Assembly (NCBI RefSeq): GCF_000719865.1
Contig: NZ_JOID01000017.1
Location: 71,915 to 135,914 of the forward strand
Source: Streptomyces albus subsp. albus
GTDB taxonomy: Bacteria > Actinomycetota > Actinomycetes > Streptomycetales > Streptomycetaceae
DNA length: 64,000 nucleotides
Direction of reading: 5' to 3'
Part shown: one piece after another, positions 60,580-63,923 of the stretch
How the letters are laid out: each line of letters starts with the position of its first letter
How positions within the stretch are numbered: position 1 is the stretch's first letter
Notes under the pieces: generated by a model
What the model was told of the DNA's origin: nothing
Database searches by the model: none
Seen by the model: only the letters and a program-made list of their open reading frames with translations
Program-made: the position numbers and the translations under genes

Positions 60580-62814
60580 TCATTCCCCTGGTGGAAGCGA
60601 GACGCGACCGGACATGAGCAGATCCACCAGTTCGGCACGGTAGACATCGAGCGCCGCAATCAGTTCGGTGTGTGCTCGATGCTGTCGGTCCACGGTGTTC
60701 AGTACACGCCCGATCTTCCGCTGCTCGGCCAAGGGAGGCAGCAGGACGGGCAGGTCGTACAGATCCCTTGAGGAGACCGACTGCACGGCGGTTCCCTTGG
60801 CCCGCCGGCTGATCCAACTCTGGGTCTCAGGACGTTCCAGGAAGCCGAGGAGGTAGTCGGGGTACGAGAGTTCGGAGGGGCGGATCCGCACCAGATGGGT
60901 GCCGAAAATCCACCCTTCCTCCGCTTCCGTGACCAAGGCGCAGCGGCCCAGGGTGCCGGTTCGCGTCATCACCACGTCTCCGGGCCGGAGTCGGTAGCGC
61001 GTCAGAGTCTTTGCTTCGTCCTCCGGGACCCACGCCACACCTTCGTGCAAGATCCGGTGCCCGCGCACGGCCGCAGGACGAACCACGGGAATCCCGCGAC
61101 CGGTGTCGTCCGCCTTGTCCAGCCTTCGTCCACCTGGGCCGACCGCGATCTCCGCCAGCGCGCCGAGCCGCTCCTGACGCCATTCGGGTGGGAGGCTCTC
61201 CCCTCTCCCACTGGGCGCAATTCGAGAGCTTGTTTCGCGCCATGGGTTCCCGGAACGTTCCAAGTTGTCGCTGAGCTTTCGCAGCCGTGCTGCGGCGGAC
61301 TCCAACCGTTCCATTCGACGAGCAATAACCTGCTCGGTGATTTGGGGATTCATCAGCGGGAGCTCTGGAGCCGTCAGGGATCGCGGCGTGAGCACGTAAC
61401 TCCGATCCCGCAGCTCATCGAGTTTGAGGGCACGACTGGCGAGGGCACCGGCACCGGGCGGAACAGGTTCGGTTCGCTCCGTTCCGTGGTGCCATGCGGT
61501 GTACGCGTCGACCACTGCGGCAATGTCCCCTTCGGTCAGCTCACGCAAGGTCGGGCTGATCATGCTGCCCAGCGCTGAGCCATCGATGAACAAGACTTCC
61601 TCGCGCCAGTCCACCGGCCGTGCCAGGATCCAGATGTTGACGGAAATCCCCGTGGTGGCGAACAACCGCGAGGGCAGTGCCACGACGCATTCGACGGCTC
61701 CATCCTCGATCATCGCGCTACGGATCCGCCCTGCGCGGCCGCCGATGAACCCGGCGCCCTCCGGCATCACCACTGCGGCCCGCCCGCCCGGAGCCAACTG
61801 GTCCATTACGTGCTGCAGCCATGCGAAGTCACCCCGCGAGCCCGGCGGGCCATAGCGCCAGGTCCGCTGCTCCTCGGAGGCGGACAGCCGTTGCGCAAAA
61901 GGCGGGTTGGTCACGATCCAGTCGATGCCGCTCGGCCAAGGGGATCCATCACGTGGCCCTTCGACTTCCATTCCCAGGCGAAAGGCCGCGCCTTCCGCGC
62001 CATGGAGGGCTAGATTCATGGTGGCGAGATGCAGAGCGTCACTGCTCGGAGTCGTACCCGTTAGGCGTGGCCGGATCCCGGATTCGGGTATCTCGGCGAG
62101 AACCGCCGTGAGCACTTCCCCAGCACGGCAGAAGGGATCGTGAACACGGCGCGGCCGGGGGACGGCAATGGACAACATGCGTGCCATAGTGCGCGCCACA
62201 GACTTCGGCGTGAATAGCTCTCCTCCTTCCCGCCGTCCGTGCTCACTCCGGTATCGGTCCACCAGCAAGTCGAATACAGCCGCGCACTGGGCTCGCGTCC
62301 CTGGGCCCTGCTGGCTGAAAACCTCAACAAGAGTGGCGACCTGTTCGTGGCCTGCGACGTCACGGTCGAGCACGGCGCACAGACCGGTACGCACAGATGT
62401 CGCCGAAGCACGGGCCGCGGGGCTGGTTCCCCATGTGTAGACCAGCCCGAGCAGCAACAGCATGTTCTCGGCTGGGGAGAACTGTCCACGGAATCGATCC
62501 GCCTCAGCCAGCAATCTGCGAACAAAGTCATGCGGGCTGAAATTGCCGCGGTCCAGCCCTGCCCGGAACCGATCGCCGAAGGTCGTACCCGCCAGCTCCC
62601 CTTCCCGCCGTACGTTCGCCGGCACCGTCCGCCGACCCAGCCAAGTGGCAACTTCATCTGCTCGGAAGACGTCGGTGTCCGAACGGCCGGATGCCGGCAC
62701 CGGTGAGGGAAAATCCTGGTGCCGCCGCTCCCAGTTGGCCACAGCAGGACGTTTGACACCCGCGAGGCGCGCGATGTCGGCACGTGTCACGACGAGTTGC
62801 CTCAGGTCCGTCAC
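60580..62814 (-). CDS. N6-adenine methylase with fused HTH and specificity (HsdS-like) domain
   Basis: 744 residues. An N-terminal HTH (~9-60, VVTRADIARLAGVKRPAVANWERRHQDFPSP) precedes a type I-like methylase core (~110-460): GGELFTPKSVARTM, a changed SAM motif DPFCRAGE (226-233, normally DPxCGSG), and catalytic NPPF (303-306). The C-terminal ~200 residues form one target-recognition domain and helix (PEWRQERLGALAEIAVGPGG; LPPLAEQRKIGRVLNTVDRQHRAH). It is a single-chain M-S protein without helicase or nuclease; no HsdR-like gene is adjacent. One TRD implies dimerisation to read a bipartite or symmetric site. It starts 15 bases after the Abi/HEPN-like gene, so the two form an operon. Confidence 0.85.
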   Translation of the reverse strand: MTDLRQLVVTRADIARLAGVKRPAVANWERRHQDFPSPVPASGRSDTDVFRADEVATWLGRRTVPANVRREGELAGTTFGDRFRAGLDRGNFSPHDFVRRLLAEADRFRGQFSPAENMLLLLGLVYTWGTSPAARASATSVRTGLCAVLDRDVAGHEQVATLVEVFSQQGPGTRAQCAAVFDLLVDRYRSEHGRREGGELFTPKSVARTMARMLSIAVPRPRRVHDPFCRAGEVLTAVLAEIPESGIRPRLTGTTPSSDALHLATMNLALHGAEGAAFRLGMEVEGPRDGSPWPSGIDWIVTNPPFAQRLSASEEQRTWRYGPPGSRGDFAWLQHVMDQLAPGGRAAVVMPEGAGFIGGRAGRIRSAMIEDGAVECVVALPSRLFATTGISVNIWILARPVDWREEVLFIDGSALGSMISPTLRELTEGDIAAVVDAYTAWHHGTERTEPVPPGAGALASRALKLDELRDRSYVLTPRSLTAPELPLMNPQITEQVIARRMERLESAAARLRKLSDNLERSGNPWRETSSRIAPSGRGESLPPEWRQERLGALAEIAVGPGGRRLDKADDTGRGIPVVRPAAVRGHRILHEGVAWVPEDEAKTLTRYRLRPGDVVMTRTGTLGRCALVTEAEEGWIFGTHLVRIRPSELSYPDYLLGFLERPETQSWISRRAKGTAVQSVSSRDLYDLPVLLPPLAEQRKIGRVLNTVDRQHRAHTELIAALDVYRAELVDLLMSGRVSLPPGE

Positions 62815-62829
62815 AAGATCATCCTCCGG

Positions 62830-63489
62830 TCAGAAGCGCGCGGCTCGGGTGCCACCGAGAGAGGCGCGACGGCCTGCGAAAACCTCGGGGAAGCGATCCA
62901 TCGTCTTGGCCTCAATCGCCAGCTCGGGGCTGATGTAGCCGAGCATGCGGTAGATCTTGGCGTGGTCCGCAGAAAGATCACGGTGGTGCACGGGTTCGTG
63001 GTGCATGATCCGGTTTCGCAGGAGGACCAGCGAGGTCAGACCGTCGTAGAGCCTCTTACGCGGCTGGTCCAAGTAGGGAAAGGCCTTGTGCAGGCTGGGT
63101 ACCCACATGCCCCGGTCGTAGGTACGGCTCAGCAGGGAGACCCAGAAGCCGAACGACAGCTCCGCCACCATACTGTCGGCTGTGGGGACTACCCTTCTGC
63201 GCTCGCACTTCCGCCTGGCTTCCATGACGAGACGCTTGGTCACCCCGTCCAGAGGAGCCGCTTCCCACCAATCCGATCGGCCATACTTCCGACTCAGCTG
63301 ATCGTGGAGAGCGTTGCGCAGGGCCAACTCCAGACAGTGCAGCGGGCCATACAGAGCGCCGCAAATCTCAACGTTCCACCAGTACAGACGGACAGCGGTC
63401 AGCGGCTCGCCCTGCGCGGCCACGACATACCTGCTCAGGCGCGGCCGGGACAGGGCGCGGACCAGCCACTCCGGCAGCCTCTCGATCAC
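62830..63489 (-). CDS. Abi-like / HEPN-type protein
   Basis: 219 residues from GTG 63489, with GGGGGA six bases upstream; the frame is open earlier but without a start of similar quality. Helical throughout. The segment LHCLELALRNALHDQLSRKYG and the later LVLLRNRIMHHEPVHHRDL (R158, N159, H163) match the R-N-x3-H of HEPN RNases and the Abi_2/AbiD-AbiF group of phage-exclusion proteins. No membrane helix or signal. Next to a methylase-specificity protein it recalls loci in which an RNase is held silent by a DNA-modification complex (PrrC, RloC). Toxicity and target are unproven. Confidence 0.75.
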   Translation of the reverse strand: MIERLPEWLVRALSRPRLSRYVVAAQGEPLTAVRLYWWNVEICGALYGPLHCLELALRNALHDQLSRKYGRSDWWEAAPLDGVTKRLVMEARRKCERRRVVPTADSMVAELSFGFWVSLLSRTYDRGMWVPSLHKAFPYLDQPRKRLYDGLTSLVLLRNRIMHHEPVHHRDLSADHAKIYRMLGYISPELAIEAKTMDRFPEVFAGRRASLGGTRAARF

Positions 63490-63615
63490 GAACTTCCCCC
63501 TCTGAACACGGCTCCACCTGCGCAGGCCGTTGCAAGAACCGGTGACGGTGATACCGTGGTCCTGAAAGCCCCGGGCCCGCCTCTGCTCAGCACGCCACCC
63601 GGGGCACGGCCTTCC

Positions 63616-63650
63616 GAAGCCCCTGGCAGCCATCGACTGCCAGGGGCTTC
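63616..63650. terminator. Hairpin upstream of the Abi/HEPN-like gene
   Basis: A perfect 14-bp stem (63616-63629 with 63637-63650, seven-base loop) followed on the plus strand by GCGTTTC. It would isolate the Abi/methylase operon from transcripts arriving from the right, or end an unseen plus-strand RNA. Confidence 0.65.
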
Positions 63651-63923
63651 GCGTTTCCCGCGGTCTGCAGCGTCGTGATGACCGTAGCGAACCGCACCCC
63701 GACATGCAAGCGCAGCGCAGTGCGTGCATTTTTGTTAAGGCCTATCTCGGCCGAGCACGGAATTGGCGTAACAGACGGAAGCGGTCGTCGTACCTGCCTT
63801 CGGACGCGGGGCTCCGCGAGACCGGCCAGGGCCGGCCCGGCCCCGCTGCTTTCGGTGCGGGCCGGAGTCTGGTCCGGGCCGGTGCCACGGCCGGCGCCCA
63901 GGGCCGGGATGCTCCTATGGATG

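Follow-up and report, generated by a model that had tools for sequence, protein, structure and literature searches.

Gene content of the locus

The analysed stretch of 64,000 nucleotides, hereafter the window, carries an operon in the order structured RNA, HEPN gene, methylase with one recognition domain (Table 1). The downstream gene, in which an HTH region, an N6-adenine methylase and a recognition domain are fused, is called M-S below. The original prediction had placed the HEPN gene at 62815..63489; the frame is indeed there, but that span takes in the 15-bp gap to M-S (62815-62829) and the frame itself is 62830-63489. Neither a helicase nor an endonuclease is encoded next to the two genes in the 64-kb window; no HsdR was seen in the window, and an HsdR query had no match in the 25 listed loci of relatives with the same arrangement, in line with the earlier proposal of a module lacking R. 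As the contig stops where the window stops, at most about 0.5 kb upstream of HEPN is visible in this genome. The last stretch of the contig (63889-64000) is repeated, at 96-100%, at the termini of two further contigs from this genome; a mobile element there probably interrupted the assembly 0.5 kb upstream of HEPN.

Table 1. Features of the HEPN/M-S locus, in coordinates of the window.
Feature	Positions	Strand	Details and basis
HTH / N6-adenine methylase / single recognition domain fusion (M-S)	60580..62814	minus	744 aa, GTG start
Methylase_S recognition domain, residues 544-721	60652..61185	minus	Pfam, 2.5e-10
N6_Mtase domain, residues 180-480, NPPF at 303-306	61375..62277	minus	Pfam, 3.7e-53
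N-terminal HTH region of M-S, residues ~9-62	62629..62790	minus	alignment A2 and first helices of the model
HEPN-like gene, AbiF-like	62830..63489	minus	219 aa, GTG start, stop included
HEPN catalytic motif R158-N159-R-I-M-H163	63001..63018	minus	alignment A5
Conserved structured RNA element, candidate antitoxin RNA	63557..63619	minus	covariation, 61 rows
17-bp hairpin directly 5′ of the RNA element	63615..63651	minus	RNAfold, 32 loci
Candidate -10, TACGGT, 18 bases from TTGC box	63681..63686	minus	read by eye
Candidate operator dyad GCA-N6-TGC	63712..63723		9/10 pattern positions
TTAACA box beside the dyad	63733..63738	minus	conserved

The HEPN protein resembles AbiF

The structure model of the 219-aa protein has a high-confidence predicted HEPN fold, as had been proposed, and its best solved match, by a clear lead, is PbAbiF bound to its ncRNA (PDB 8vz6), with the fold shared over 203 residues at 15% identity. 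R158, N159 and H163 stand at the positions originally named and are, together with E165, invariant across 64 homologue rows (alignment A5), and the protein carries the R-polar-x3-H catalytic motif of AbiF/AbiD (Abi_2). Searches of Pfam, NCBIfam and PDB sequences gave it no name: Pfam returned only sub-threshold HEPN_Swt1 and Abi_2 matches, the latter (PF07751) at 12.1 bits against a gathering score of 25.6, which the HEPN of one relative, L038, passes with 27.9 bits. The PADLOC model PD-T4-5 matches the protein at 5.1e-12. Homologues are found on 599 plasmid and 5 phage records. The protein is predicted to be an RNA-cutting toxin, which extends RNA cleavage from AbiF by analogy.

The methylase-specificity protein and its pairing with HEPN

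The M-S protein has the N6_Mtase and Methylase_S domains of a type I system, with a single recognition domain. Its structure model (pLDDT 84.6) matches type I M subunits by Foldseek, and the NPP of the methylase is invariant in alignment A6. At the N-terminus Pfam gave only a weak YdaS_toxin match (E 0.094), and the HTH was read from the alignments and the helices of the model. Type I families are known for swapped recognition domains. Hypervariable recognition domains were looked for here as a sign of use in restriction-modification and were not found, the recognition domain being no more variable over relatives than M (median identity 0.37 vs 0.34).

A HEPN match was obtained in 19 of 297 family genomes, in 12 of them, window included, at ≥48% identity. 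Directly downstream of HEPN, 10 of these 12 close genomes encode an HTH-methylase with a recognition domain. A species-level scan, with one genome per species, reported at least 80 HEPN loci; the 80 listed comprise 25 of the M-S type, 4 of the R-M type (type I R-M genes with HEPN and an HTH protein whose methylase domain is degenerate; L084 is one of them) and 51 of neither. After removal of 4 duplicates, HEPN followed by a methylase and a recognition domain, with no HsdR, was seen at no fewer than 31 distinct loci, all in the same order and on the same strand. As it recurs in 31 distinct loci, the arrangement is more than chance, and the conserved pairing anticipated for Actinobacteria was confirmed at family and species level. 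The 31 loci span Streptomyces, Kitasatospora, Planomonospora, Sphaerisporangium, Sinosporangium, Streptosporangium, Amycolatopsis, Nocardia, Lentzea and Pseudonocardia (ten named) as well as one further genus. Most of them encode M and S separately; fusions occur in the window, L063, L066, L068, L069, L073, L077 and L088. In the HEPN tree all 31 M-S rows fall within one 42-row clade (98 SH-aLRT) together with 11 solo rows, the presence of M-S requiring 5 changes, and M distances track HEPN distances (Spearman 0.86, 31 systems). A class survey of 394 genomes contributes ten loci, L229-L238, in which RNA, HEPN and methylase follow one another; these may overlap with the 31.

In five loci of the R-M type (L038, L039, L083, L113 and L122) HEPN and an HTH pseudo-methylase, whose methylase domain is degenerate, are followed by the complete type I set HsdM, HsdS and HsdR. 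The degenerate domain in L038 has DPPF and no clear motif I. L084 is of this type in part, with no HsdR in reach.

A conserved structured RNA precedes HEPN

Aligning the upstream regions exposed a conserved structured RNA that was absent from the original prediction. The element is present upstream in 12/12 close loci, two solo ones included. In an alignment of 61 rows 90.6% of cells pair, and 40 cells are changed on both sides, compared to 9.6 ± 2.0 after shuffling (0/500) and ≤10 with slid partners. The model of this RNA, R1, scores 71.1 bits in the window, which is one of its training rows. R1 matches precede HEPN in all 38 listed loci at ≥44% identity (29 of them training rows); the match at L081, not a training row, reaches 77.8 bits. 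At E ≤ 1e-3 R1 matches 66 of the 80 listed HEPN loci, 49 of which are training rows, and the 14 with no such match are all under 44% identity. Matches in R-M type loci are weak in L038 (19.2 bits), L039 (19.1 bits) and L113 (16.2 bits); L083 and L084 have the RNA, and R1 was not found in L122. Over the 297 family genomes, with strict filters, 13 matches exceed 55 bits, namely the 12 close-HEPN genomes and G238, and one genome (G202) has a match of 45.1 bits; matches of ≤34 bits were taken as chance, since no HEPN lies nearby among the inspected loci.

Rfam gave no credible match for the element. The abiF RNA family RF03085 has no match in the same genome at E ≤ 10, and cmscan of the window and L098 regions did not assign the element to it. 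The hairpin at the 5′ side is present in the folded Streptomyces loci with a varying sequence. Repeated RNA units of the type III toxin-antitoxin (ToxIN) kind were not seen, as R1 matches the window once and the preceding hairpin differs in sequence. HEPN with the RNA and no methylase was found across Actinomycetota, Pseudomonadota and in a cyanobacterium. Judged by alignment and model searches, this is a putative RNA family absent from Rfam that finds predicted HEPN toxins across phyla.

Loss pattern among relatives

The 38 listed HEPN loci at ≥44% identity consist of 25 M-S loci, one of the R-M type, 11 intact solos and L081. The 11 solo HEPNs are uninterrupted and keep the RNxxxH motif; L081 is also solo, its HEPN interrupted and its RNA intact. 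A methylase remnant of 61 aa is left in L067. In G238 the RNA is kept and both HEPN and methylase are gone, the neighbours being the same as in L027-L033. Among 27 newly examined RNA loci of the class survey, which leave out 9 further RNA matches, HEPN adjoins the RNA in 18, is truncated in one (L228, under a 76.3-bit RNA) and is lacking in 8. RNA copies with no HEPN nearby are L240, L243, L244, L246, L250, L251, L252, L254 and L199.

One Streptomyces chromosomal site (L027-L033, L199) is flanked by a MIEIPSDLHPDL gene and a Fur-like gene, and its contents vary between the full system, HEPN with RNA, and RNA alone, which marks it, from comparison of these genomes, as an apparent insertion or loss hot spot.

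The order of losses is therefore RNA without HEPN and HEPN without methylase, and among the 38 listed loci a close HEPN never occurs without RNA. Because the RNA outlives HEPN and HEPN outlives the methylase, it is the RNA and not the methylase that probably acts as antitoxin; with HEPN as the toxin and M-S as an accessory, these roles fit the order of losses. The original prediction that M-S holds HEPN silent does not agree with this pattern, as 11 of the 38 close HEPNs are intact without M-S while all 38 keep the upstream RNA, which also persists without HEPN, as one would expect of an RNA antitoxin like that of AbiF; M-S as the antitoxin was accordingly dropped as the lead. The methylase is more likely a regulator or sensor than a silencer, and a sensing or activating role of M-S is possible.

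Methylase relatives pair with other small proteins

Taking the best 4 candidates per genome, related methylases are present in 259 of the 297 family genomes at E ≤ 1e-10, the HEPN-paired clade is never seen in the family without HEPN (10/10), and a bit-score gap (639 vs 428 bits) sets the HEPN-paired methylases apart. The gap fails as a mark in the class, where HEPN-paired methylases go down to 361 bits and one of 505 bits has no HEPN. Next in score in the family (368-428 bits) come the methylases of 13 loci, which are M-S fusions with no HEPN; each of the 13 has a hydrophobic frame of 55-98 aa that starts between -7 and +145 bp of the methylase stop. A fused HTH-methylase-recognition gene with a conserved hydrophobic frame of 55-98 aa behind it was observed at L156-L168, L255, L259, L261 and L262, the last four repeating the arrangement in the class survey. 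The survey further includes L258, with a 61-aa hydrophobic frame, L256 and L257, with small membrane-like frames upstream of the methylase, and L260, where no small hydrophobic frame was seen. In L256 the upstream frame (66 aa) overlaps the methylase start, the place held by HEPN elsewhere. The membrane character of these proteins was judged by eye.

In a methylase tree of 56 rows, built by a quick method, the 18 with a downstream frame form one side of a branch (99) and two with an upstream frame lie on another branch (100). HEPN requires 2 changes on this tree, and the HEPN-paired rows are not one clade. Across these loci the methylase appears to stay while its partner changes. The hydrophobic protein is possibly a parallel toxin partner, and since the partners include such small proteins, effectors would differ for this kind of methylase.

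Candidate promoter and operator

To the upstream side of the RNA, most Streptomycetaceae M-S loci carry TTAACA and the GCA-N6-TGC dyad near a TTGC box, and from the candidate -10 in the window transcription is expected to start near 63674. A similar dyad is found upstream of M in the genes of the small-protein clade. The pattern GCAY-N4/5-RTGCGC, which was composed after the sites were seen, is perfect in 7/31 M-S loci and in 13/21 others (7 of those with longer windows), in 1/10 clade solos (L067) and in 1/29 distant loci. Allowing ≤1 mismatch it is found in 15/31 M-S loci and 18/21 others, against 10% and 15% in shuffles, and it goes with an RPA[VT] HTH (14/23 vs 1/8, p 0.037). A stricter cross-clade scan, using a matrix from the small-protein clade dyads, gave 7/31 HEPN-M-S loci at p ≤ 0.05, and the dyad of the window was not significant (p 0.40). 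Autoregulation by the HTH, as originally suggested, is favoured by the shared dyad near a candidate promoter and by the RPA[VT] association, and is weak in the cross-clade scan; with moderate confidence, the HTH of M-S may regulate its own operon.

Discussion

AbiF-Cd of C. difficile is neutralised by binding of the RNA RCd22, and its toxicity needs R202/H207, as described in PMC12373285. The system reported here shares with AbiF and its ncRNA (AbiF-Cd/RCd22; PbAbiF, 8vz6) the HEPN fold, the R-polar-x3-H motif and a structured RNA just upstream. It differs in that the AbiF RNA belongs to RF03085 and is repeated, whereas the RNA here is single-copy with no RF03085 match, and in that the operon adds an HTH-methylase-recognition protein. 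As it fails both the Pfam Abi_2 cut-off and RF03085, we describe it as one that would work like AbiF and do not file it as a member. PD-T4-5, a single-gene Abi on a plasmid and a distant AbiF/D relative (PMC9519451), likewise has a HEPN-like protein, its PADLOC model being the one that matches here, but it has no methylase, and the available text of PMC9519451 does not mention an RNA for it. A 2013 paper (PMC3710099) proposed HEPNs of the Abi2/AbiF/AbiD group in R-M operons and, separately, their restraint by R-M subunits in the manner of PrrC. Such operons, like the five full R-M type loci above, place a HEPN gene beside DNA-modification genes, but they have HsdR, unlike the present locus with no R, one recognition domain and its own HTH. 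PrrC/EcoprrI also combines a predicted RNase with a HEPN-type active site and nearby modification genes; yet the analogy to it that had been drawn fails on anatomy, because PrrC has an ABC-ATPase and a complete hsdMSR and the window a single 219-aa HEPN domain, no ABC-ATPase, no HsdR, and an RNA instead. Type I M/S subunits (EcoR124I, PacII M1M2S) share the M fold, NPPF and the Methylase_S domain, whereas the present protein is fused, with an N-terminal HTH, a single recognition domain and no R. Searches of open-licence literature listed no HEPN-RNA-methylase operon of this kind. AbiF with an ncRNA is already known; the R-less HTH-methylase-recognition protein as a fixed third element, the RNA and the small-protein relatives did not turn up in those searches.

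The reading we favour is an abortive module of AbiF-like HEPN and RNA, placed under a methylase-specificity protein dedicated to it as regulator or sensor. We put at roughly one half the probability that this is an abortive-infection operon in which the RNA silences the AbiF-like HEPN and the HTH/methylase/specificity protein both regulates the operon and senses invaders. HEPN, the predicted RNA cutter, would be kept silent by the RNA encoded just upstream, cleavage and neutralisation both being extrapolated from AbiF. M-S may use its HTH to bind the promoter-proximal dyad and hold expression down. Phage DNA, or an anti-restriction protein of the phage, could then draw M-S off the dyad, more transcription would enter HEPN, and the balance of toxin to RNA would tip.

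The tight conserved pairing and the correlated divergence of the two proteins could also mean that M-S marks host DNA and directly silences HEPN, as EcoprrI does PrrC, so that its loss or inhibition in infection frees HEPN; restraint of this sort was proposed for HEPNs in R-M operons in the part of PMC3710099 cited above. Intact HEPNs without M-S in 11 of the 38 close listed loci, a methylase clade not seen in the family without HEPN (10/10, best 4 candidates per genome), the reverse of an antitoxin pattern, and a conserved RNA in the antitoxin position make this improbable. We regard as rather unlikely, though less so, an immunity similar to R-M in which HEPN replaces HsdR, M-S protecting self sites and, on unmodified phage sites, activating HEPN directly. 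The intact NPPF methylase and recognition domain, the small hydrophobic partners of the same methylase kind and the existence of loci with HEPN plus HsdMSR all suit such a scheme, but the recognition domain varies no more than M does (median identity 0.37 vs 0.34), unlike the swaps of type I families, and judging by conservation HEPN works without M-S in relatives. Less probable than any of these is that an autoregulated orphan methylase and the AbiF-like module of HEPN and RNA share a transcript with no functional link. HEPN with RNA alone does occur in a cyanobacterium and across Actinomycetota and Pseudomonadota, the family is rich in related methylases (259/297 genomes at E ≤ 1e-10, best 4 candidates per genome), and in the class survey methylases of the M-S kind also occur without HEPN; against it, order and strand are constant in 31 loci, all in one 42-row HEPN clade (98 SH-aLRT), and in the family M at the HEPN-paired score is never without HEPN (10/10, best 4 candidates per genome).

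Beyond the RNA-silenced HEPN under a methylase regulator or sensor, we tentatively suggest a modification-suicide class. HTH-methylase-recognition proteins might there be resident DNA-marking sensors and regulators with interchangeable killers, an RNA-silenced HEPN RNase or a small hydrophobic membrane-type protein depending on the lineage, so that reading of self and non-self would lead to death and not to DNA cutting; to this would be added a new family of antitoxin RNAs that solo HEPNs share across several phyla. From the order in which relatives lost the parts, the partners can be ranked, without experiment, by which restrains which. The locus joins in one testable operon three layers, namely a putative antitoxin RNA, a predicted RNase related to AbiF and Cas13, and a methylase that resembles type I enzymes but lacks R. 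Should the interpretation hold, orphan HTH methylases of Actinobacteria could serve in defence as regulators or sensors and not be restriction leftovers, and the operon would represent a new bacterial wiring of DNA marking to self-sacrifice against phages.
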